23,941 bases of DNA from the NCBI RefSeq assembly GCF_000003605.2, contig NW_003156744.1:229109-253049 (forward strand), read 5' to 3'. A program made the position numbers and the translations under genes. This document shows positions 561-20,680 of the stretch, in pieces. Every line of letters starts with the position of its first letter. Position 1 is the stretch's first letter. The notes under the pieces are model-generated. The model was not told the origin of the DNA. It made no database searches and worked only from the letters and a program-made list of their open reading frames with translations. Source of the stretch: Saccoglossus kowalevskii. Taxonomy: Eukaryota > Hemichordata > Enteropneusta > Harrimaniidae.

Positions 561-1047
561 CTGTTTCGAAATAACAAAAGATATGGTTAGAAAAATCAAC
601 AAGTTTTCAAACATCTTCTAATGACCAACTAACAAGTTATTTGATGCGATCGGCACATAGTGGCTTTAAGCTGACAATACGTACACCGTGAAAAGTTGTG
701 CAAAGCGATTGCAAAGTTGGTAGGATGCATTTGTATATTTGACCTCAGTTGTTGGCATATCAAACCCCACAGATGTAAAATAAAAAAAAACGATTAAAAG
801 CCAGAGGAAAGAAGCCTATAATAGCAGATCGTCACATGAGATGACTGTAAAATGTTGTAAAATTGTGTAAAGCGATTGAAATGTTGGTGGAGGTACTTGT
901 ATGTTTGACTTAAGTCATTGTCATGACAACCTCGCAGCTATATTTCGAAAACATTGAATAAATGACTAGAAAATGCCCGTATACATGCAGAATATCTCGA
1001 CAGAGAACTGAAAAATGGAAGACTAACTGCTTACAAAGTTGTAAGCA
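560..1047. repeat. ~170-bp repeat family, block A
   Basis: Shares long stretches with 11926-12400 and 12575-13082, for example AGCAGATCGTCACAT, TTGTATATTTGACC and TTTCGAAAACATT. Inside it the phrase GCGATTGNAAAGTTGG...TTGTATNTTTGACC occurs twice, about 166 bp apart, so the family is itself a tandem of diverged ~170-bp units. Confidence 0.85.
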
Positions 1048-1148: not shown

Positions 1149-1215
1149 ACAGCAACATACAGCAAATTAATTTCAATCAAATTAAATTTATTTATTTTGA
1201 TATTGTTAAGCTAAC

Positions 1216-1316
1216 GAAACATGGTACACAGCTGTATCATTCGTTTCGCTATATCCAGCTGATTTCGAAATCCTCAAACCACTCACATAGGATTGTTGAC
1301 ACCCGATTGGTGGGTT
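1216..1316. repeat. 101-bp duplication, copy 2 (the copy that includes the exon 7 end)
   Basis: This copy contains the real 3' end of exon 7 and its donor. It is separated from copy 1 by a 67-bp AT-rich spacer (1149-1215) and lies in the same orientation. Confidence 0.95.
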
Positions 1317-1416
1317 CTTGTGCGTTATAGTCAGTTGAAAACACTCATCGTCGTAATTATATCGCAGACCCTGCCTTACACAGGACTCCAGGAATCGACG
1401 AAGTGATAGAATATGA
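1287..1416 (-). CDS. FOXRED2: FOXRED2-like exon 7, acceptor without AG
   Basis: The reading [30 protein letters not shown] and PPIGCQQSY matches vertebrate HILPLRRFLEN, ESCFLFALT and PPFCQQGYL. The donor TAT|GTGAGT (GT at 1286-1285) is strong and gives phase 0. From exon 6 the frame requires the exon to begin with the T at 1416. The bases before it are CTTGCG, not an AG, and no other in-frame acceptor lies between the upstream stop and the homology. Read through without splicing, this frame runs to a TAA at 1208-1206. Confidence 0.8.
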
Positions 1417-4400
1417 CGCAAGATATAACAATTATATTCAGATGCAAATTACAACCAAATTTGTCCGATAAACTCATCCCTTTGCTCCAAAATCGAAATT
1501 AATTAACATTTGTTTTTGTTCCAAAGAAGTTCTTGTTAAAATGAATATTACATATTTTTCTATTTATGCTAATTTCTCCATCTCGAAACTTTGATCGGAG
1601 AAATTTGATGAAACATTCATTTACTATTATTGATATGAATCTCTCTCAACTGACGTGTCAGTTTAATTGTCCACAGCTTGTGACCATTCGCATAATAAAT
1701 AAACAAACTTGTTCTTTGTATTATAATGGAATTTAAGCTTTGATAAAATAATTTTATTAATACGTCAACTATGAAAAAATGACATTCTTGCTAAGTTGCG
1801 TAAAGATATTATTTGGTCGATATGTGATTGTACCATTAAATATATATTTTTGTCACACGAATGACCGACACAAAACAAATTTCGAGCACTACGATATATG
1901 GCGTAGTAAGATAAATAGAGTATTTGTAATTCACCTGTTAGGTGCAGACCATGACGTCATAAGATCTGATGTTATATGGTGCATTTTGGTTGGCCGAGGC
2001 AGTCCGTTGTCTAAATGCTTATTATGCATAATCATATCTATCAACAAAATACACAAATAGTTATGGTAAAAATACTCTTACAGTTTACAGTTGATGGATT
2101 TTTTATTTATTTTTTACATATTTGGCAATTAAGGTAATATTCACGATAGTTTAATGTTAGAGTTGCATTCCGGGATCATTTATATGGCCTTATTGGAGTC
2201 TCAGTGTTGTTATGTGAAACATTTGATGAGCTGAATTGTTTTCTTGTTTGTCATTACGTCACCACATCGAAATCTTTGCTGCACATATTTTCTACAATTA
2301 TAACGAATTGTGGATTAACAACATATTTATTTGAATTGTTGACCAATAATATCTATAATGCTTTTATCGATTAGCGCAAAAGTAAACTGGAAAGTGGCCT
2401 AAAGAATTCCTACCTTCTAAGCAAATTACGTCATTATTCACTGGCATGTACCCTACTCTATTACAATACATATTTTTAAAAAGTCTAAATATTTCACATA
2501 ATACGCTGTATAGTACATGTCAGGAATGTCATTTGTTACGGTAGTTACCTCTTGGTATTTGCTCGTAATAATGAAAAATCGGGTGCAGAAAGAAGGTCGT
2601 GTGCGCCTTGCTGGCTAAGCTTAATTCCACTTCTGAATATGGAGAACAACAAAATAAAGAGAAAAAAATTAAACAGTCAACAGAAAATGGGAAAGTGAAA
2701 TAATATTATTTCCATCTTTGAACGCCGAAGGTTTGTCTCTATCATACTGGTTCGATAAACACCACGTAAATAGTAATCAGTGTGTAAATACCATGCCACG
2801 AAAATACAACATACTATATATTAAGTATGGTGCAGAACATTACTAGTAAACGAACTTTGAATAAAATCCAAGATCGTAATATTATTATTATCATCCTAAC
2901 CAGTGGGAATACAAGGCTATCTTACACTTTCACGTCAAATTATAATAGTTTTGATTATCCCGATTAATACCCGATAATGACGGAACTAGATATTTCTGAA
3001 ACCTGTGTTCACTTGAGGTGACTGCACAATGTTGTTTTGAATAAATAATGCGATACAAAGCAACCCTTTAGGGACGATGTTTAATTTCCAAAAAAATCTT
3101 CATGCAGTTTCCGCAACAAATACCATTTTGCAACAATCGAATGCAAATTAGACATTATCCTTACAACTAGAGTTTTATGATAGACCAGACAAGTTAAAAC
3201 TAACACAGCTATTAAAATTGTAATTTGTTTTGTGTGAAAATTTTACACCATTGGTTGTTTTTCTACAAAAAAAAGAGTCCGGTAGTGTGAATTTCAAACA
3301 ATGTGTCAATAGATTATAATAAAACAATATAATATAATATAAGACAGACGAAGCAATCAATATTAACGACAACAACATTGTAAGCACACCCCACCTTTCC
3401 AAGGTCCATACTGCAGAGTGAATACAATAATTCGTTGTGCTTCTTTCCCAGTAATATTCCTAAATCTTGGTAACAGTTGTAGTGGATAGTCTTCCAGATA
3501 TTCGTATGTTTCATCACTAATTGAAATTGAAAGAATAATTAAAATTGTGTGGGAGAAAAGAAAGTAAAAGAGGCGAAAGTCAGAATAATCACAAGACAAA
3601 AAAGTTTATCTTAATATTTCAAAGATATATCAAAAAATTAATAAAAAAAATCTTTGTTTAATTTGAATGTATTAAATGTCATAATTAAATCTGGAGACAA
3701 CAATCGGCGAAATAATTCAAGCATGATGAATGTATGTCACAACTATCTCTGAGAATAAAAACAGATTAATCCATTCACTGCAAGAAAAGGTGCAGGAATT
3801 ACACTAAGGTTGTTATAATGCTGAAATCCTACCTTGATAATATCATGACGTCACTTAATACGCCAAACATTTGGTACAAACCAGATGCTTCGCTCACTCG
3901 TTTGATAATATGATTCAATAATTCCGAAATTGACAGTTTAATGGACGGCCACGGTTTTTTGTGATTCTGGTATTCGAGTATTCGGTGAAGAGCCTGAGCT
4001 GAAAAATAAGATATCAAAACACGAACATGTTAGAAATTCTCGCTACCATTATATAAATCTAATCTTCTCATGCATGAGTTTGTTTACTAATACCACAAGC
4101 AGCATGGAGGATCAAACAGAGCAAAATGCAAGTGATATTTGTGCTATGTGGGAACAAACAAGATCAACCTATGTGAAGACCAGTAAATCCTGTCTGGGGT
4201 ACAAGCAGAAGAAAAAGAAGGATTCGTTGACACATGACAAACCATAGAGAGCAGGAGAGCATTAAAGAAACAAGTAATCGAGACAAAATCGGCTAGAAGA
4301 AAGATACAAGAAACAGTTCCAAGAAACAAACAAAGCAGTTCCAAGGAAAGCCACGGCTGACAAACATGCATACATAGAAGATCTAGCCAATCAAACAGAA

Positions 4401-6911
4401 AGGCAGCCAGGAAAGGCGAACAAGTGAAGGTCTACAATCTTACCAAAATAGTCCATGTCGTCATATCTAGAATACTTAAAACTATATCGCTATATTTTCA
4501 GTAATTTTGCCAAACATTGGTACCGTGGGTTAAAAGTATACAAATATAAAAGTATCGCATCCGAAAATACCATAAGCATAAAAATCAAGAAAATAACTTG
4601 ACAAGGTTTGGATATTCATTACTCTTTTAACTGTTTCATCCTTCATAGTATAAAACCCACATAATTGTTTTTACTTTCTCTTGAAATGCTGAGCAAATCC
4701 CAAAGTCATTATGAAACTATGGTCATTTGGCTCTAAGATATCAAACATAACAAAATATATACCACACATTTAATACATTTTAAAATGTTGCAAAATGTTG
4801 TACCAATATTTAACATGAAACACTATGGCGTCTAATAACAATAACATATTATATGGTCGGTGGGACTAACTTGCATATGTGGACAGTATCTTTCTGGTCT
4901 CTAATGAGAATAGACCCGCAGCTGTGTTATCACGTCCAACACTCACAATCGTTGTATTACACTGTATATGTATATTGCACTTAATCTTATATGCTTGGAA
5001 ATATTTTAGTATAGCATCAGCGTTGGGCAAAAAATCCCTTGAAAATTCCCTGTGAAATAATAAAAATAAACATCTAATTCGGGACTAAGCCGAAAGTCGA
5101 AGTTGATATTTTGTCTCACATGAAGTTAGCCCTTATATCACTTACTTGTTCACATGACATGCGCTTAGAAATAATCATCACCCAACGCTCAATAAATAGA
5201 TGAATGGATAATTTCAACCTTGAGACATTTATTTCAACTACACCTCTTCGAAGGTTGTTTTTGATTTGCTTTAATTCGCATTGTGGCGTGACGGAAGCGC
5301 ATCTCCCTACAGTGGTTAGGCGCATTTGCAGCGAATCTCGTGTGTTATGTTTATATGTTCTTATGTGCCTGTAATTGTGATGCGAATATTTAGGATATTT
5401 TATGATTTCTAATTCTCCCATTCAGCACCCAGATGCTGTACATGAAGATTCCCAATGAATTTCACACCGTGTTTCGTATTTGATGCTGATAACACAATGG
5501 GCATCTTCATACAGAAATCTCTTGTCAATTGTAGTAGCCGGCAACCTGTTGGGTTATGTGGATTCAGAATAGCCTCAAATGTCAGGTGAACTTCATCGCC
5601 CAAAATAATTTCGGACGTTGAAGCTTTACTGTGAAACCGAGTTCCTTAAATGAGTCAGAATAGCACATCCATGTCAGGTTCATTTTACCCGTGTTTTAAG
5701 TCTACACGGTAAACAAACACGTGTCCAAGTGTGAGTTTACTGTGAGATGCTTGAGTATTTTGTATTTCAATGTTCTGTTCCAATGCTCTACAATAAAGGA
5801 TTCGTGCTCACTGTATGTGTGAAACTATTCTATGTTAATATTGTTAGCCAGATTAGGAATTTATTGTTCATACACCAACCTTCTCATCTGTCTGCAGCGT
5901 CTTTAGATGATGACTCTTGGTGACTATTTGACGACCTTCAGGAATTTGTCAGTAGCCTTTGATTTGAAAAGTATATTTCAGACCCCCTTTCATCATATGT
6001 TTTCATCTTGTCCCTGTTTACAATCTGGTGGATTCTTCTTTGCATAATTCTCCTATCTTGGTCTCAGCAGTAAGAACGACCATTTCACAATAGAATAGCT
6101 TACATTGGAGCAGGTGTCCTATCGAACTGGATGGCACTCTGGATGTCAAAATCCATAATATAAAAAGCTTGGGATGGAGATTGAGACAACTCTTAATTTA
6201 TACACACAGAAATTGTTAGTGTTAACATCACACATAGTCTTCGCACCATTGTTTAGCGTACCATGCTTTTCTTTGTATTATAGTACATGCTTTCTGTTTA
6301 TAAAACAGGGTGTATAACATGTTGAATAAAACAAAAACAAAATACACTGGGTCAAGATTAAATGCTGTACAACCTAGAAACTGGAATAATTTCTGTTATG
6401 CGATCATTCTTTCTGATAGCTCGTTATTACTAGATGCGTAGCTGCTGTTATGCTGTTATATAATTTAAATTATAACGAATTTAAAACTCATAGATTTGAA
6501 TATCCCGAATAAAATATTAATAATTAATTAATTAATTAATTAATTAATTAATTAATTAATTAATTAATTAATTCAACGTTACTTGAAATATAAATCGCCA
6601 TCGCCAATAAGAGATTTCCAATCATGTCTGAAATTAAACTCCTTGTTTGTACTCCCAGTGTTAATCTTATTGATGCTTAGCAACTTGCGATGTCTTGGGT
6701 ACAGTTCGAAGAAGGATCCTGGCATATTTGTCTTCTCAAATATTACATAATCACGATTATCTTTCTCCAGAAAGTAACCCATCTGTAGACCTGCTGGTCC
6801 GGCGCCGATTAAGCAATATTGATGAAATCCTAATGCGTGGGTTACTGAAACAAAGCACGTGATCAGGGTCCATGTTCCGATTATCGCTGTATGGAGTGAA
6901 ACTGACAACAT
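1287..6911 (-). CDS. FOXRED2: FOXRED2-like FAD-dependent oxidoreductase, seven exons found, middle and C-terminus missing
   Basis: Joined exons are 6583-6911, 4871-5049, 3833-3998, 3395-3516, 2549-2632, 1935-2037 and 1287-1416 (1113 nt, 371 codons, phases 2,1,2,1,1(G),2,0 all consistent). FOXRED2 (ERFAD) is a luminal ER flavoprotein that works with OS-9, SEL1L and ERdj5 in ER-associated degradation. Seen: a signal peptide, a GAGPAG dinucleotide-binding motif at residues 36-41, and family-typical blocks such as [64 protein letters not shown] and [11 protein letters not shown], in the same order as vertebrate FOXRED2 as I recall it. Not found: the central part with the second Rossmann motif (GRGNSAFE-like) and the C-terminal exon, which in vertebrates ends in a KEEL-type ER-retention signal. 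The first intron of the gap region carries a LINE piece. This may be a real gene with lost or misassembled exons, or a decaying copy. Identity is very sure; functionality is not. Confidence 0.9.
1935..2037 (-). CDS. FOXRED2: FOXRED2-like exon 6
   Basis: The acceptor is GTTGATAG (AG at 2039-2038), behind a T-rich tract. AT completes the preceding G to Asp. The reading is [11 protein letters not shown] then [20 protein letters not shown]. The LPRPT..HH and W(S/T)AP blocks are FOXRED2-specific as recalled. A second in-phase acceptor (CATTTAG) lies inside and would shorten the exon; the longer form fits the vertebrate spacing better. The donor is AACAG|GTGAAT (GT at 1934-1933), phase 2. Confidence 0.9.
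2549..2632 (-). CDS. FOXRED2: FOXRED2-like exon 5 (84 nt)
   Basis: A pyrimidine-rich tract ends in CCATATTCAG (AG at 2634-2633). The first AA completes the G of exon 4 to Glu. The reading is [19 protein letters not shown] then [18 protein letters not shown] matches vertebrate NFLHPVIYYY. The donor is AGAG|GTAACT (GT at 2548-2547), phase 1. It is slightly shorter than the vertebrate stretch upstream of this block. Confidence 0.88.
3395..3516 (-). CDS. FOXRED2: FOXRED2-like exon 4
   Basis: The acceptor CAATTAG ends at 3517. The T at 3516 completes AG to Ser. The reading is [36 protein letters not shown] and PWK, matching the vertebrate FEYLEEFPMQML and LTGRKARHGLFVINMEYG blocks. The donor is AAAG|GTGGGG (GT at 3394-3393), phase 1. 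Confidence 0.9.
3833..3998 (-). CDS. FOXRED2: FOXRED2-like exon 3 (after the missing middle)
   Basis: The acceptor is a T-rich tract ending TTTTTCAG at 3999. The exon starts CT, completing a phase-1 codon, then [18 protein letters not shown] and [19 protein letters not shown]. It matches the vertebrate segment that follows the second nucleotide-binding domain. The donor is AAG|GTAGGA (GT at 3832-3831), phase 2. Exon 2 also ends in phase 1, so direct joining of exons 2 and 3 keeps the frame. Confidence 0.92.
4105..4445 (+). pseudogene. LINE ORF2 fragment, linker between endonuclease and reverse transcriptase
   Basis: The first frame reads [19 protein letters not shown] and [14 protein letters not shown], then a stop. 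Shifted frames continue with [15 protein letters not shown] and [13 protein letters not shown]. This is the basic linker found before the RT domain in many non-LTR retrotransposons (the pattern GYRKKKKKDW...RALKKQ...R.DKRAYIEDLA). There are several frameshifts and no RT core. It lies antisense inside the FOXRED2 intron that should hold the missing exons. Confidence 0.75.
4871..5049 (-). CDS. FOXRED2: FOXRED2-like exon 2
   Basis: The acceptor TTTCACAG ends at 5050. The first G completes the AA of exon 1 to give Lys. The 59 whole codons read [17 protein letters not shown], then [11 protein letters not shown] and GLFSLETRK. These align with the vertebrate HYSRAYFPDADTMVRYL, YNTTIAHV and HYFILTD blocks (recalled, not searched). 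The donor is A|GTTAGT (GT at 4870-4869), phase 1. It is too short and too divergent in places for a blind ORF call, but position, phase and motif order agree. Confidence 0.85.
5409..5645 (-). other. Orphan open frame, possible exon inside FOXRED2 intron 1
   Basis: A 78-codon open stretch with protein-like composition ([39 protein letters not shown]) that ends in TAG at 5411-5409. A possible acceptor CGGTTTCACAG (AG about 5629-5628) would give phase 2, which fits exon 1. No donor leaves it in the phase exon 2 needs, so inclusion would end the protein. It is not part of vertebrate FOXRED2 and I do not recognise it. It could be an alternative terminal exon or chance. Confidence 0.3.
6521..6573. 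repeat. (AATT)n microsatellite
   Basis: About 13 uninterrupted tetranucleotide copies in FOXRED2 intron 1, ending about 8 bp from the donor of exon 1. Confidence 0.98.
6583..6911 (-). CDS. FOXRED2: FOXRED2-like exon 1: signal peptide and FAD-binding Rossmann start
   Basis: The ATG at 6911-6909 opens a hydrophobic segment (residues about 6-26, ending VSVTHA) typical of a cleaved signal peptide. The strand-loop-helix [11 protein letters not shown] follows, with the acidic residue of the second strand in VIFEK. The blocks [18 protein letters not shown] and [11 protein letters not shown] are hallmarks of the family. The exon ends TTCAA at 6583 before a donor GTAACG (6582-6577), phase 2. An AATT microsatellite lies just downstream in the intron. 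Confidence 0.93.
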
Positions 6912-7197
6912 CGCTTAGTTGATTTTATATGTTTTAAATTCTGCAAAATACCCAAAATAAAGAAAAACTGTCAATATTAAATAAATATCAAAAAATATAT
7001 TCTATATATAGCACACCGTATGCAGGCCGATTGATATAATTGTATGTTTTCATCCCAGTCAATAGATTTTAAAACAGTTCGTGGAACAGCGCTTTACCCT
7101 ATAACGTATTTTCTCAACTCGGCTGAAGACAATATAAATTAAGAAGCACTTCAAAAGATGAGCTGTAAATGTAACATTCTTGCACGCAAATTCTCAC

Positions 7198-7283
7198 TAA
7201 AATCTTGGCCGACCAATGTAATGTTTCCCTTATGTAGTCTCCAGCACACAGAATTTGCTTCCTAAGCTTTCTTTGATCATCAA
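7198..7283 (-). CDS. Possible exon U4 of an unrecognised gene
   Basis: The acceptor ATAACTAG ends at 7284. TT follows, then 28 open codons, DDQRKLRKQILCAGDYIRET and LHWSAKIL, to a donor TTA|GTGAGA. The charged, helix-like sequence and intact frame suggest coding. If spliced to a CTTCAG acceptor near 7130 the next codons are CCG AGT TGA, a stop. No family is recognised. Confidence 0.3.
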
Positions 7284-7611
7284 CTAGTTATAAAAATAAC
7301 AGTTCATAAATGTAATTATCTATTTTTTTCATAAAATTGCGCTGCTTTTCAAAAAACCTCTCACCAAACTCTCAGTCTCTCTAATCTGAGCCATTATATC
7401 CCATAATAATAGGTCCAGAATACAGACAGATTTTTACCAACTTTGTAATTTGATGTGTAACACTGTTTAAATTTGATTTAACAAGTTATTGTTAATGACA
7501 CAGTCCCCGTCCAAAATTTTGTGATCTGACATATCAATTTGATGCTGATGAAGTCACTGAGATTAGATTGAAACCGTTAATAGGAGATGGATTTGTTAAA
7601 AAAAATATGAT

Positions 7612-8015
7612 TTAGTGCATTCATGGGAAAGTAGGCATGGGTATCATGAAAAACAATATGGCCACCAGTCAGCCATATTAGTTTGAATCACAGAAAAAAT
7701 ATGACATGCAACTATAACCCGATATGTAGGATCATCATACCAACTTTGATCTAAATTGGCCTAGTCATCTCTGAGAAACAGCTCCGGACATGTAAAAATG
7801 ATGATTTAGCACTTTTACATGAAAATTAGGCGTCGGCCAGCCATATTGAATTGAATCACAAAAATCATGTTGATGCAGATGTATCTCTTGGTATACTATC
7901 ATTGTACAAAATTTAAACAGAAACGTTCATTGCATTCAAGATAAAGCAGCATGGATACCATGAAAAACAAGATGGCCGCCAGTCGGCTATATTTGTTTGA
8001 ATCACGAAAAAAATG
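7612..8015. repeat. Degenerate ~150-190-bp tandem repeat
   Basis: The phrase ATGAAAAACAA(T/G)ATGGCC(A/G)CCAGTC and GGC(T/C)ATAT..TTTGAATCAC recurs at about 7645, 7830 (with a deletion) and 7957. The leading TTTAG(T/C)(G/A)C..T..CATG part recurs at 7612 and 7804. It resembles dispersed repeat debris; no coding is seen. Confidence 0.65.
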
Positions 8016-8378
8016 ACTTCGTCCGAACAAGGACTAATTACTATTAAAGAAAATACACCAGGGTTAAATTTGGAGTTCAAGCCTCAGTACATGCGTTTAA
8101 GTTGATACCCCCAATATGTATTTAATTTTCAGGTGGTTAAGTTTTTGTAATGCTCTGTATTTTTTTCCCAAGCATAAACAAAAAAACAAAACAAGAGACA
8201 TTTGTTTGTATTATGTGTGAGATAGGCTCTGCCTTTTAATCTAGTACGATGACTACCATATACCGGTACATGTAGGCTCGAATGAGATTATATCACAAGC
8301 TAGTTCTAATTTGGGGAGTATTACCACATGTTTTAATTTCATCAGTAGATGTTTTTTTATATATTGAATTAAAGTTAC

Positions 8379-8461
8379 CTCATGCTTATTTATATGTATC
8401 TCACTGAGTTCATTTTGTGAGACACTAGTCTGTGAAGATTGGGTTGCTTGTAGATACAAGT
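8379..8461 (-). CDS. Possible exon U3 of an unrecognised gene
   Basis: The acceptor ATTGTCAG ends at 8462 and the donor GAG|GTAACT has its GT at 8378-8377. AC plus 27 open codons read LYLQATQSSQTSVSQNELSE then IHINKHE. The start phase (1) fits the end of the candidate exon at 8591-8668, giving Tyr across the junction. The composition is Ser/Gln-rich and probably disordered. Unrecognised. Confidence 0.4.
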
Positions 8462-8590
8462 CTGACAATATCTATTGTTTTAGTATTTATTTTTATATAT
8501 TTATAAATTGTGCAGTATGTCTTGGTTGTATAACTTAAGGTATTAGAACTCAAAATTATTTCCTGTACCCAATAACCTAGACATACTTAC

Positions 8591-8668
8591 AACCCATCTC
8601 CGCTCCCCATCTTCCAATTATGATATTTGTCGATAGATTTGGGAGATATTGACCAGCAGTACAATATC
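8591..8668 (-). CDS. Possible exon U2 of an unrecognised gene
   Basis: A pyrimidine tract TGTCTGTGTCTGAG precedes 8668, and a near-consensus donor GTAAGTATG starts at 8590. GA plus 25 codons and one base read YCTAGQYLPNLSTN and IIIGRWGAEMG. Its end phase (1) matches exon U3. Another frame is also open, so the protein is uncertain. Confidence 0.4.
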
Positions 8669-9063
8669 CTCAGACACAGACACATGTAACTGTAAATTTG
8701 CAGTAAAATTGCAATTATCGGATTCTTACAATGCTGGCAGAATATCCATTGTTTAAAAATACCTTAAACTAGTATGTATGTTGGGTTGTGTTTTTAATAC
8801 CAGTATTGACACTAAAATTAGTATTGCTACTAAAATGTAGCATGTATTTAGAGTGTTGAAATAAATTACATGTACAATGCATAGCGGTACATGGTGTTTT
8901 AATCTTGGTATGTATCCTGGTCCTGTCAGACAAACAAATTATTTGATACTACAGTGGTAACCCCTTTTGGGAATTTAATCTATGTCATATTATGCATTGT
9001 ATCAGTCTACTGATGCGAACTGCCTTGACGGCAATGTGGATAACACTACTATTAGGTTTAAGA

Positions 9064-9390
9064 AATAGTTTTAGTTTAAGAATTTGCAATTATGCTACCA
9101 TTAGTTGTTCGTGAATAAAAAACAAACTAGTATGACTTAAAAAAGTGTCCCTTAATAGTTTTAGTTTGATAATTATGCATTAATGTCCACATTAGTTGAT
9201 AAGAATAGAACAAATAATATGACTTCAAAAGTGCCTCCGTGTCTTCTCAAGTATCCCAAAATAGTTGTAGTTTAATAACTTTGATTAGTGTCATCATTAG
9301 CTGTTCGTGAATAGAACACATTATTATGCCTTAAAAAGTGTCCTCATGTTTTCAAAAATGTCCCACAAATAGTTTTAGTTTAATGACATT
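9064..9390. repeat. Degenerate tandem repeat, ~90-108-bp units
   Basis: AATAGTT(T/G)TAGTTT starts units at 9064, 9154, 9260 and 9368. Each is followed by a TTAG.TGTTCGTGAATAGAAC-like stretch and TATGACTTAAAAAGTGTCC. Intergenic or intronic. Confidence 0.75.
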
Positions 9391-10028
9391 TTGTTGAGAA
9401 TGACATGCATTGGATTTAATAGGGATCGCCACAATTCTATCCCATTCCTATTTACGAGTTCAGAATGTATATCATGTAACAATGAATAGACAATCCAGGT
9501 TATTACTACATCAACACATTGTGCAATATTTTTCTTCTAGCAGTAGTAGTTATAAAAGTATATATACTCGGTGTTTAGTGTCTGCTAGCATTGCTGTCAT
9601 TTCACTGTGCTGGCTTACTACATCGTGACATAGGATACACATCGGACATAGCCCCCTTACTACATTTCATCACTGGAACACTTTTGAAATCTTAACAAAC
9701 ATGGTTGAACAGTAATCTTACGAAGCATTATTTTATCTTGGGATCTTTTCTCTTTCTAATGATTGACTTTTTTTGTCAAATTGGTGTTCTATTTGTTCCG
9801 TTAAACGACAATATTGGTTGAGTTGAGACACCACACACAAACAAACCCTAGAGGCTATTCAGTATAAATCACGAGTCAACACATAAGACCCATTTTACAT
9901 AAGCACAAAATAATTGCTTTGAACGGTAACACCCAAAGACCCTACTACCATACAATAGTTTTCATTCCATACTACAATCACTTTAAAAGTCATTATAAAC
10001 AACAGAATTGAAAAAGGTACGACATTAC

Positions 10029-10105
10029 CTCGTCTTCTGTTCACTTCCAGTCGTGAAATGGTGGCGGTAAAACAGTCTAGACGTAGAATAATACTCGTTG
10101 TCCAT
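10029..10105 (-). CDS. Possible first coding exon U1 of an unrecognised gene
   Basis: GCTATGGAC gives a good start context at 10105. The frame MDNEYYSTSRLFYRHHFTTG continues to a donor ACGAG|GTAATG (GT at 10028-10027), phase 2. A second frame is open too. It does not join in phase to exon U2, so at least one exon would be missing or the grouping is wrong. Confidence 0.35.
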
Positions 10106-11280
10106 AGCAACAATTTGGTAAATCCGTTTTATCCGCCGTTTGTTTTAAATACAACTTTTTTTATATTATGTTGGTTACATCTATCTCTGAGAGTGTTTTA
10201 AAATTAGATCAGTCATTGTGAACCTCAGACTGGTAAGATGTATCTTGCAGCCTGTCTGTATATCTATTATTATTATTATACATCTGTGACGCTGCAATTT
10301 ACAACGTGCCGTAATTTTGTGGTATTTTACGGGGTACTCAGACAGTACGCCGCGTGTAGGTCGATACTAAAGCTGTAATGTCTTCGTGCGTACGAAGGAC
10401 TTCGTTTCCGTTGCTGCCACTACGCCAATAAATAGATAAGACACCAGTGGAATGACACTACATCAACAATGAGACGGGCGAATTGCAAGATTATGAAAAA
10501 CTAGTAGAGTAATATGCGATATGTTTACTGGAGCTGTATGTGTCGTGATTTTCAGTTCATTTCATGTGTTATGCAGCATGGTCACACAGCGACGTTGGTA
10601 TTAGGTTTTGTATTTAAACACCATTTGTAAGACATGTAATTGGTGATTTGAATGAATGAATTGTGACATTAGGTGCCATTGTAAGGCATTAGTCTCAACA
10701 ATATACAATGGTTTCTAAGGAACCGTTAATTTTATCGGAATTGAATAGTCCATAGGGTACCACTAAAACCTATGCCTATATGTCGAATCTGAGGCTTGTA
10801 CATTGCATCTTAAACCATCTAAAGGACATATAATAAGGAAAAACCTCCAGACAATGAGGTGAAAAGGTTCATTAAATTACAAGTTATTCCAACCAGGTTT
10901 GCACAAAACAATCTTTGAAGACTTTCTTAGTTGCATCATAGACTATATAGAAGCTGATTGCTTGTATGTGTCTTGTTAAAGCTAGAAGTGGCATTACTGT
11001 CATGAATTTGTTTTCGCGTATCTGTTGACCGACTTAATTAACTGATTATTAGCGAATTGCTGTGTTATGTCTGTCATCGTTTAGGTCTATTTGAAGTTTT
11101 GGACGGAACTTGGCTCAGTGATTTGGAACTAATTACGAGATAATCGTCGCCATTTTGACAGTTTATATCCATAGTTATTAATGTAGTGAACGATTAATCA
11201 AAAGATATAACGTATTCAGTACTTAGTGTGATTGGCTTTATGATTGAAGGTTACGCCCTAGAGTCTTTTTACTGTTTTGT
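10106..11280. other. Intergenic, nothing recognised
   Basis: AT-rich with a few CpG-bearing stretches near 10290-10430 and a short ATT run at 10266-10279. No frame, RNA or repeat was convincing. Confidence 0.4.
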
Positions 11281-11925: not shown

Positions 11926-12400
11926 AGATGTATTTGTATATTTGACCTATGTTGCTTGCATATCAAACCCAACTGTTGTAAAGTCGGAAAATGAATAAAA
12001 GCAAGATGAAACAGCTTATATTAGCAGATCGTCACATGAGGTGCCTGTACAATGACGAAAAACAAGCTTGCAAAGGAGTTCAAAGTGATTGCAAAGTTGG
12101 CGGAGGTGCTCGTTTATTTGACCTACGTCATTGTCATGCCAACCCCGCAGTTAAATTTCGAAAACATTAACTAAATGTATAGAAATATGTATCTAAACGG
12201 AGAACTGAAAAATGGAAGACAAACTGCTTACAATGTTGTGCAAAGCCATTGCAAAGTTCGAAAATGTGAATAAATATATCGGTAATTGCCGTTAAATTAT
12301 CGTTCTGTCTCTCCAAGCATGTAGAGGTCAAAGATAAATTCAAGAAGTTACTTGTGAAACGATATCAATTATAAAACATTTACAAACATGAAATAGTCAT
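11926..12400. repeat. ~170-bp repeat family, block B
   Basis: Aligned with blocks A and C in the same orientation. It carries TTGTATATTTGACC, AGCAGATCGTCACATGAGG, CCAACCCCGCAGTTAAATTTC and a third partial unit (GCAAAGCCATTGCAAAGTT). It ends AACATTTACAAACATGAAAT, as block C does. Confidence 0.85.
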
Positions 12401-12574: not shown

Positions 12575-13082
12575 AGCAGAAAGTCATGGAAATTTATATA
12601 TTTTTAAAGTTCAAGTAAAGTTTTCAAATTCCGTCTAATGATCGAATAACAAGCTGTTGATGCTGTCGGTACACAGTGGCTTAAAGCCGTTAGTACACCG
12701 TGCAAAGTTGTGCAAAACGATTGCAAAGTTGGTAAATTTGTATTTGTATATTTGACCCAAGTTGTTAGCATATTAACCCCCCCCCAGTTGTAAAGTCGAA
12801 CAAAATGAATAACATCCAGAGAAATAAAGCCTATATTAGCAGATCGTCACATTAGGTTACTCTACAATGTTGAAAAACAATATTACAAAATTGTGTAAAT
12901 CGACTGAAAAGTCTGCGGAGGTGCTTGTATATTTAACCTAAGTCATTGTCATGCCAACCCCGCAGTTAAATTTCGAAAACATTAACTGAATGTCTAGAAA
13001 ATGCCCTATAAACGTGCAGATTATCTCAAAAGTGAACTGAAAAATGGAATTTTAAAACATTTAAAAACATGAAATAGCAGCC
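12575..13082. repeat. ~170-bp repeat family, block C
   Basis: Close relative of block A over its whole length, including the leading GTTTTCAAA..TCTAATGA part that block B lacks. It ends AACATTTAAAAACATGAAAT. Blocks B and C flank the 5S-like segment. Confidence 0.85.
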
Positions 13083-15023: not shown

Positions 15024-15227
<204 letters not shown>

Positions 15228-16192: not shown

Positions 16193-17578
16193 GACGTGTG
16201 CTGCATATATCTTTACTATTCAGTCTATTCAGTGGTTATAATGACCGTGAACACACCTGACATAAATGTATAACGCCGCGGGAGGATATAGGTCCTATAA
16301 TCACACGGATGATATTGTAACATTTTCTCGCTGTCGGCTCGTGTTTAACATGCTATTTTTCTGCTTCTCAAAAATGAAGAAAGACGATTATTTTGAAAAT
16401 GATTTACCTAAAATATCATTTAACAGCATAATATCATTATGTTGTTAAATCGTCTAATAAAATGTCTAATAAATAGAATGATATAATTAACTAGAGAGGG
16501 TGTTATCAATTGAAAACATGAATGAAAAAATGATCCAATGGAGGATGTAGCGCCCAGGTGTGCTCAATTAGACGGAGTAATTGCTTTCCTGTATAGTAAC
16601 AGAGTGAGCTTATGTTCTTTTAATCGCTCTCTTTTCTATTGTAAACTTGAACTGTGTGTATTCATGTATAATCACTCCCATTGGGCATATATAACATCAG
16701 AAGTCAAAGTCGATATAATATATACCGTATACCAATTAAATATTGTGGATTAAGTAAAATGACCGTCTAATTATCGTATTTATTTTAATTTTCTATTTTT
16801 GTGAAATTGAATAAAAATGTACATTGCGTGCATCAACAATAATTTAAAAAAATAACATACATTGATAACAAATGCAATGGTGTATACTTAAACAATTTGA
16901 AATTGTACTGACCAATCAATAACCCACACACGCACATCGGAATCACGTAAACAGTTGTTTGATTGGATACTATAACTTTACTGTCATAATTTGTTAGATT
17001 ACGAATTACTGTACAAAATTGAGTTACTATAAATGTTTCATTTTGGAAATATACTACACCAAATATTGGGCGAATTTTGTACCCAATAGATTGAACAGTG
17101 TTGATTATTGATGGGTACCATTCGTCTTTTATTAAATATATCAAATTAAAATATTAAAATATGATTATATTTATTACTGCCGTATGTCATCTCAGCATTC
17201 CGCCATTTGCCGGTTTGGATTCCGCCATTTGCCGGTTTGGATTCCGCCATTTGCCGGTTTGGATTCCGCCATTCGCCGGTTTGGATTCCGCCATTCGCCG
17301 GTTTGGATTCCGCCATTTGCCGGTTTGGATTCCGCCATTCGCCGGTTTGGATTCCGCCATTCGCCGGTTTGGATTCCGCCATTTGCCGGTTTGGATTCCG
17401 CCATTCGCCGGTTTGGATTCCGCCATTCGCCGGTTTGGATTCCGCCATTCGCCGGTTTGGATTCCGCCATTCGCCGGTTTGGATTCCGCCATTCGCCGGT
17501 TTGGAGATTGGCGTCTCACCCGAGGGGCCGTATTACTGCCGGTGTCTGGTGTCGGTTATAATCATGCCACCAGTGAAT
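16193..17578. repeat. Diverged duplicated segment, copy 1 (contains the 22-bp minisatellite)
   Basis: Shares an ordered series of blocks with 22333-23252: GGTTATAATGACCGTGAA, CACACCTGACA, CTGTATAGTAAC, TTATGTTCTTT, TAATCACT(T)CCCAT, CCAATAATTTAAAAAA-like, GATTACGAATTACTGTACAA, TATTTATTACTG(C/T)CGTAT, GGCGTC(T)CAC and AGGGGC. Gaps and substitutions are many, so the copies are old or are two members of a repeat family. Confidence 0.8.
17197..17504. repeat. 22-bp minisatellite, 14 complete units
   Basis: The unit is ATTCCGCCATTYGCCGGTTTGG with a single variable base. Reading T or C at that base, the units run TTTCCTCCTCCCCC, so units 3-11 form three TCC triplets of 66 bp. The unit has no stop in any frame and is not a multiple of three, so overlapping open frames of 90-150 codons appear on both strands. 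GC is far above the flanks. Confidence 0.98.
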
Positions 17579-18640: not shown

Positions 18641-19419
18641 ACTGAAAGTGACGTGGTATTACGTATACAATATACATACACAAGGTTCACACGAAGATCG
18701 AATATGTTAATATTTACGATTTTATTTGTCCACGAAGGTTTACATAACGTGAGTGAAATAGACAAAGAGTTGGAAAGTACATTGACATATTTTGAAATTG
18801 AACAATATTACAAACGTCAGCAAAGAATCGACTAATACGCTTACTGGTGGCAAATATTGACCCAACGTGCAAACATTTATATTTTTGAACAATACAATTC
18901 AATTTGACACGATTCCTGAATCCGTCAATCGATTACTGGTGTCAAGTATCGACCATGCATACGACAAGCTTTTAAGTCAATCCAACGATTCATCTAATTT
19001 TAACTAATAAAATCAATACACATGCAAGGTACTACTAAAAGTGATATTGCTACGTTTACACGGCAGCATTCTATTGCCGACATTCAGTTTGTTCAGAGCT
19101 GAACGTGGCTAAAAACGATGTTGGTGTCGTGCTTGTGTTGTTGTTTCTTTACATGGCACGATGCATGTCAGAGTATTATCCTGTTGAGCGGAGAGCGAAA
19201 GGAACAGTCATTAGTCTGAGACAATGTAATAGTGTTATGATATAGGTATCTTGAATAAACAGTATATACGGCAGCTAAATGTGTTACAGCCTATTCACAT
19301 AAGTTATTGTCATGCAAATTAACCATCTTGTAATTTTTCAACTGTTGCGATATATGTAACAATTACTAGTATCAACCCAAACCTAGTAGGAACACGTCGC
19401 CGTATCATGACCGGTTAAC
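18641..19419. other. No gene; weak local repeat
   Basis: TTACTGGTG(G/T)CAA(A/G)TAT(T/C)GACC occurs at about 18841 and 18934, a degenerate ~93-bp repeat. No convincing coding region. Confidence 0.4.
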
Positions 19420-19461
19420 GGACGTTTCGACCCGGACGTTTCGGCCTGGATGTATCGTCCC
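19420..19461. repeat. Three 14-bp direct repeats at the LINE 5' boundary
   Basis: GGACGTTTCGACCC, GGACGTTTCGGCCT and GGATGTATCGTCCC run head to tail. The LINE homology begins at once after them. Confidence 0.85.

Positions 19462-20680
<1,219 letters not shown>

Follow-up and report, generated by a model that had tools for sequence, protein, structure and literature searches.

The minus strand of the window, that is, the whole stretch of 23,941 nucleotides of Saccoglossus kowalevskii DNA analyzed here, carries a FOXRED2-like gene (exons 1–7 span 6911-1206) which is very probably a decaying, unprocessed (DNA-duplicated) pseudogene. Exons have been lost, exon 2 is frameshifted, the exon 7 acceptor is broken and the stop codon is gone, all of them disabling lesions. 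The same genome possesses a complete and functional-looking relative, C662B (on contig C662 of the same assembly), with an open frame of 604 amino acids. FOXRED2 (also called ERFAD) is described in two reports as an ER flavoprotein with NADPH-dependent reductase activity which acts in ER-associated degradation (PMC7563561, PMC3040216).

Two protein probes were used for the gene: human FOXRED2, in a version of the sequence that did not come from a database (here and in every other comparison using the human protein), and the homolog of Actinomadura sp. J1-007, taken from a public genome. The human probe gave seven colinear matches (6818-6582, 5060-4929, 4005-3838, 3566-3405, 2591-2553, 2002-1940 and 1415-1260), the weakest being that at 2591-2553 (E 0.15); the Actinomadura probe matched exons 1, 2, 3 and 6 at E ≤0.13. 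In the seven-exon model the phases join throughout, and the splice sites are GT/AG except for the exon 7 acceptor. The exons, with the partial duplicate that accompanies the last of them, are:

6583..6911, minus strand: exon 1, 329 nt, donor gtaacg, with a start that resembles a signal peptide (by eye) and the FAD-binding GAGPAG motif; 62% identical to residues 33-112 of the human FOXRED2 sequence, 91% amino acid identity to the C662 sister, Pfam Pyr_redox_3
4871..5049, minus strand: exon 2, 179 nt as read (180 in the sister), donor gttagt, with a one-base deletion near 4902/4903, based on the alignment with C662 exon 2
3833..3998, minus strand: exon 3, 166 nt, entered in phase 1, with GT/AG sites; 54% identity to human residues 403-458, 92.6% to C662
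3395..3516, minus strand: exon 4, 122 nt, from the human probe, the gene model and the C662 match
2549..2632, minus strand: exon 5, 84 nt, on the same three grounds
1935..2037, minus strand: exon 6, 103 nt, on the same three grounds
1206..1416, minus strand: exon 7 homology, to the first in-frame stop; acceptor AG destroyed (ends CG), sister's stop codon gone, 16 extra codons
1048..1148, minus strand: partial duplicate (101 bp, 98%) of the exon 7 sequence 1216-1316, with a stop kept at the position of the sister's stop

The borders facing the intron of interest, an exon 2 end at 4871 and an exon 3 start at 3998 on the minus strand, are where the earlier note had placed them. The gene has homology to the FOXRED2 family across both its N- and C-terminal blocks. 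An Rfam search of the window returned nothing at gathering scores, and a search of viral contigs with exon 1 found none. Within intron 1 there is a 78-residue stop-to-stop frame on the minus strand (5409-5645) of raised G+C content, only 5422-5470 of which was matched in C662; neither Pfam nor NCBIfam gave it a family match at E ≤1. Elsewhere the window contains a plus-strand retroelement remnant (19411-20680; RVT_1 match, E 2.6e-12) followed by a 123-bp TTA repeat, 14 near-identical 22-bp units which are open in several frames (17197-17505), a TTTA repeat of approximately 200 bp (15024-15227), and a dispersed repeat family with at least three copies in the window (681-1042, 11927-12262 and 12693-13071).

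The sister gene C662B (C662:170078-189029) has ten exons with GT/AG sites throughout and an open 604-residue frame closed by a single terminal stop; over residues 33-618 it is 45% identical to the human FOXRED2 sequence. C662 contains a counterpart of every one of the seven window exons, with amino acid identities over the matched parts of 91, 72, 93, 87, 73, 82 and 86%. At the DNA level the window from 1154 to 10240 is colinear with C662, unmatched stretches being interspersed. In the colinear set of 14 pieces, gaps not counted, aligned identity is 91.4% in exons (980/1072) and 84.6% outside them (3521/4162). The introns are thus retained, and the window copy is not a retrocopy; introns of the two genes are colinear. 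C662B differs from the window copy in having three additional middle exons, an exon 2 of 180 nt, an intact acceptor at exon 7 and a stop codon at SA. Since the non-exon DNA is only 84.6% identical, a paralog arising from an old segmental duplication would fit better than an allele. An allele or haplotig of C662 was judged unlikely, the non-exon DNA differing by 15.4% in addition to many gaps; an allele that divergent would be an extreme case.

The intron between exons 2 and 3 is the site of the exon loss. Its features are:

3999..4870, minus strand: intron between exons 2 and 3, 872 bp; the equivalent region of the sister holds three extra exons (EX1, 252 nt; EX2, 237 nt; EX3, 179 nt)
4101..4102, no strand assigned: deletion junction on the exon 3 side, where homology to the sister (C662 184798) stops
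4102..4480, plus strand: LINE-like reading (from translation) that runs antisense to the gene and is interrupted by stops and frame changes; approximate at either end
4554..4587, minus strand: last sister-like sequence on the exon 2 side, 34 bp, 91% to C662 177618-177649
4588..4846, no strand assigned: stretch of 259 bp absent from the sister intron, either an insertion in the window or a loss in the sister

By comparison with the sister gene the missing part amounts to 668 nt, or approximately 222 residues. The earlier note had reported that this block is absent from the intron, and its absence holds with three sets of probes, elsewhere in the window as well. The middle block of the human protein gave a best E of 6.7 over the window and that of the Actinomadura homolog 1.2, while the middle exons of the C662 sister reached 21.9 bits at best, where its exons 1, 2 and 3, serving as controls, scored 213, 82 and 103 bits. 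The proposition that the middle exons are hidden in 3999-4870 or shuffled within the window was rejected, the matches being at noise level only. None of the 30 matched pieces between the window and C662 falls inside C662 177650-184797, although homology is colinear on both sides; a lax search in that interval gave weak matches (best E 2e-5), mostly to the TTTA repeat. Relative to the sister, approximately 7.15 kb has gone from the window copy, and three exons with it. A search of the 572-Mb assembly with the missing block yielded at least 28 matches at E up to 10, at least 25 of them below 0.01, on seven contigs; the counts for such families are lower bounds, and none of the listed matches lies on the window's own contig, C4620, of which the window spans 229109-253049. 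Because these matches lie on seven other contigs, the block is missing from the window copy yet present elsewhere in the genome.

Adjoining the deletion junction is the antisense LINE-like reading, which sits within the 452 bp (4102-4553) between the two ends of sister homology. The earlier note had called a LINE fragment here; an antisense LINE-like reading is indeed present, but Pfam gave no support for its identity as a LINE. The 4102-4480 stretch may be the linker of a LINE ORF2. Its one Pfam match, to XRCC4 (E 0.0086; 16.5 bits, where the cut-off is 26.2), was taken as chance. Comparison of the LINE-like and 259-bp stretches with 21 stretches of the genome (two of them all N) using blastn and tblastx gave no match at 1e-3.

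According to the earlier note exons 2 and 3 stay in phase across the gap, so that splicing would still give an open protein. As the letters stand the join is open, but the native phase is another one and the match arises through a separate frameshift. The three exons of the sister total 668 nt, which leaves a remainder of 2 modulo 3; since this is not a multiple of three, skipping them in the native gene would break the frame. Exon 2 of C662B is 180 nt in length and ends in phase 2, as do by eye two C1742 copies (L011, L013) at the same intron, i.e. three of the three copies looked at. The window's exon 2 appears to end in phase 1 because its own one-base deletion, located approximately 32 nt before its end, shortens it to 179 nt; the last ten or so codons are out of frame, and 11 residues replace the DQKG-type sequence. 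A natural phase match was therefore rejected: the frame match across the gap is the sum of two lesions. A chance origin is not unlikely: single-base deletions, which by reasoning make up about half of all one-base indels, produce the match, and single-base insertions do not.

At the other end of the gene the acceptor of exon 7 reads CG in the window versus CAG in C662, and exon 7 could not be brought into frame with any AG tried in the interval that separates it from exon 6. Both C662B and the partial duplicate within the window have the stop codon, but exon 7 itself has lost it, and its reading frame continues for another 16 codons. The sequences at 1048-1148 and 1216-1316 form a 101-bp tandem partial duplication (98%) which includes the 3' part of exon 7. 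The exon 7 frame ends in ...VSLA in the window and in ...RSA in C662B, with no ER retention signal in the exon 7 frame of either; an additional exon is possible. The C-terminal ER retention signal reported for human ERFAD is KEEL (PMC3040216).

The window copy has in common with known FOXRED2 the exon-coded blocks and their order, the FAD-binding GAGPAG start, and the C-terminal region up to the CQQ(S/G)Y block. It differs in the broken exon 7 acceptor and in lacking approximately 222 residues, which comprise the ATG-type block, the NADP(H) block that resembles GRGNSAFE, and the second FAD block as far as FIHGFRYT. When exons 1–6 are joined the product matches Pyr_redox_3 profile positions 2-124 of 305, compared with 2-305 for the sister; the complete two-dinucleotide-binding core (Pyr_redox_3 to its end, with the GxGxSA-type NADP(H) block) is not there. 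The exon loss removes the NADP(H) domain along with the second half of the FAD domain. Because both are gone a working flavoenzyme would not be expected, to judge from the fold family, and we infer that the window copy makes no working protein.

Over 379 codons the comparison of the window copy with C662B gave dS 0.19, dN 0.07 and dN/dS 0.37 (0.22 in exon 1, 0.34 in exon 2 and 0.47 in exons 3–7), omitting the exon 2 gap codon, those that straddle the exon 2/3 join and exon 7 past the sister's stop. The two copies differ at 56 residues. With all outgroups 25 of these changes were assigned to the window branch, 12 to C662B and 19 to neither (one-sided p 0.024), and with the near outgroups only the corresponding figures were 21, 5 and 30 (p 0.0012); the polarization depends partly on the choice of outgroup and on the human row, which is the non-database version, and the C1742a row was assembled from two opposite-strand stretches (L011, L012). 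This excess on the window branch, 25 to 12 or 21 to 5, is the relaxed constraint looked for in a pseudogene. For exons 3 and 4 the count with all outgroups is reversed, at two for the window and five for C662B. Of 73 conserved columns the window copy has kept 59 and C662B 65. The seven remaining exons, read in the sister's frame, have no premature stops. Taken at face value the window branch would have been unconstrained for approximately one third to one half, or 0.03-0.047 substitutions per site, and the probability of zero premature stops under such neutral decay is roughly 0.06-0.17 (the upper value was interpolated). The lack of premature stops thus agrees, roughly, with a recent death of the window copy. 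As a counterpoint, the lack of premature stops and the overall dN/dS of 0.37 suggest that the copy was under constraint for much of its history, and it might be expressed in part even now.

The earlier note had put forward lost exons, exons skipped by the assembly, or a decaying copy. Exon loss gains support from C662B, complete in appearance and still in possession of the three exons, and decay from the exon 2 frameshift, the exon 7 acceptor, the lost stop and the excess of amino acid change. By contrast we consider it most improbable that the three exons exist at this locus and were passed over by the assembler, perhaps through collapse of a repeat at the LINE-like piece. The deletion junction does adjoin a repeat-like stretch, and the flanks of the window are all N (L023, L024), but the window itself contains no letter N. 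Moreover the LINE-like piece, broken as it is by stops and frame changes and having no second copy among the compared loci, is unlike a fresh identical repeat, and a skip would leave the other lesions and the excess of amino acid change unexplained. The lesions were read from a single assembly, in which base errors are possible. The LINE-like piece could itself have triggered the exon loss, whether its insertion was coupled to a deletion or two copies of it recombined; this we regard as doubtful. Sister homology stops at 4101, where the LINE-like reading adjoins, and the C662 stretch fetched is without such a piece. However, its edges are undefined, it is broken, it has no second copy among the 21 compared stretches (two all N), and, if it is a LINE ORF2 linker, it is missing the 3' end expected in a fresh insertion. 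The deletion may have been mediated by the piece, or a later deletion may simply have cut through it. A LINE trigger is compatible with a decaying duplicate, as it concerns the trigger only.

A living, shortened gene would require an out-of-frame loss whose effect on the reading frame was then repaired by the one-base deletion in exon 2, with exons 1–6 still being translated into a small protein with part of the FAD domain. The join is open, every splice site between the donor of exon 1 and that of exon 6, both included, is GT/AG, there is no premature stop and the overall dN/dS is below 1. Nevertheless, exon 7 could not be spliced in frame via a normal AG, the product would be without Pyr_redox_3 profile positions 125-305, there are more amino acid changes on the window branch than on the sister's, and chance suffices for the frame match. 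We find this reading barely credible, and equally so its extension, that the exon 2 deletion was selected as compensating and gave rise to a new, shorter, expressed ER protein with half of a FAD-binding fold. An unprocessed pseudogene is the best reading. As with unprocessed pseudogenes in general the window copy keeps its introns, has a whole sister elsewhere and combines deletion, frameshift and splice loss; it is of the same kind, and the apparent frame match is the sole odd touch.

The history would then run as follows. An old duplication would have copied a segment that covers approximately 9 kb of the window, and the C662B copy would have stayed whole. The window copy would have lost approximately 7.15 kb between exons 2 and 3, including the three exons for the NADP(H)-binding domain and for the second half of the FAD domain, and would have gathered, in one order or another, the exon 2 frameshift, the break in the exon 7 acceptor and the loss of the stop. 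The tidy look of its remaining exons might reflect the recency of the decay.

Additional members of the family were noted in this genome. Upstream of the sister gene lies a remnant of exons 5–7 (C662:160048-161508), for which no earlier exons were found in the preceding 34 kb (126001-160048), and downstream of it an inverted piece of exon 7 (C662:193116-193027). FOXRED2-like sequences also occur on contigs C1742, C4070, C1506, C3160, C2592 and C1555. In five of these loci (C4070, C1506a, C1506b, C2592a and C2592b) a single match runs from exon 1 into the EX1 region, which suggests that introns are absent there. On C1742, 66.5-70.5 kb of the minus strand holds the N-terminal half (exons 1–2, EX1 and EX2) and 78.4-80.7 kb of the plus strand a C-terminal half running from EX3 to exon 7 (L011, L012), as if one gene had been broken by an inversion or two partial genes were present. 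Outside the animals compared, the Actinomadura protein (L001) is 41% identical to the human sequence over 560 positions, and an actinobacterial homolog from Nonomuraea (L002) is 77% identical to that of Actinomadura. A literature search on FOXRED2 together with pseudogenes returned nothing about the present subject, by title and abstract opening, and neither did the records listed by two more general searches.

Matched intron phases are no proof of function, and here it is a second lesion, in exon 2, that makes the match. Gene predictors may fuse exons 2 and 3 and so produce a spurious short FOXRED2 protein. What appeared to be an exon-skipping gene resolves, most likely, as a duplicate in decay, in a genome that also contains a complete-looking FOXRED2-like gene and a wider family.
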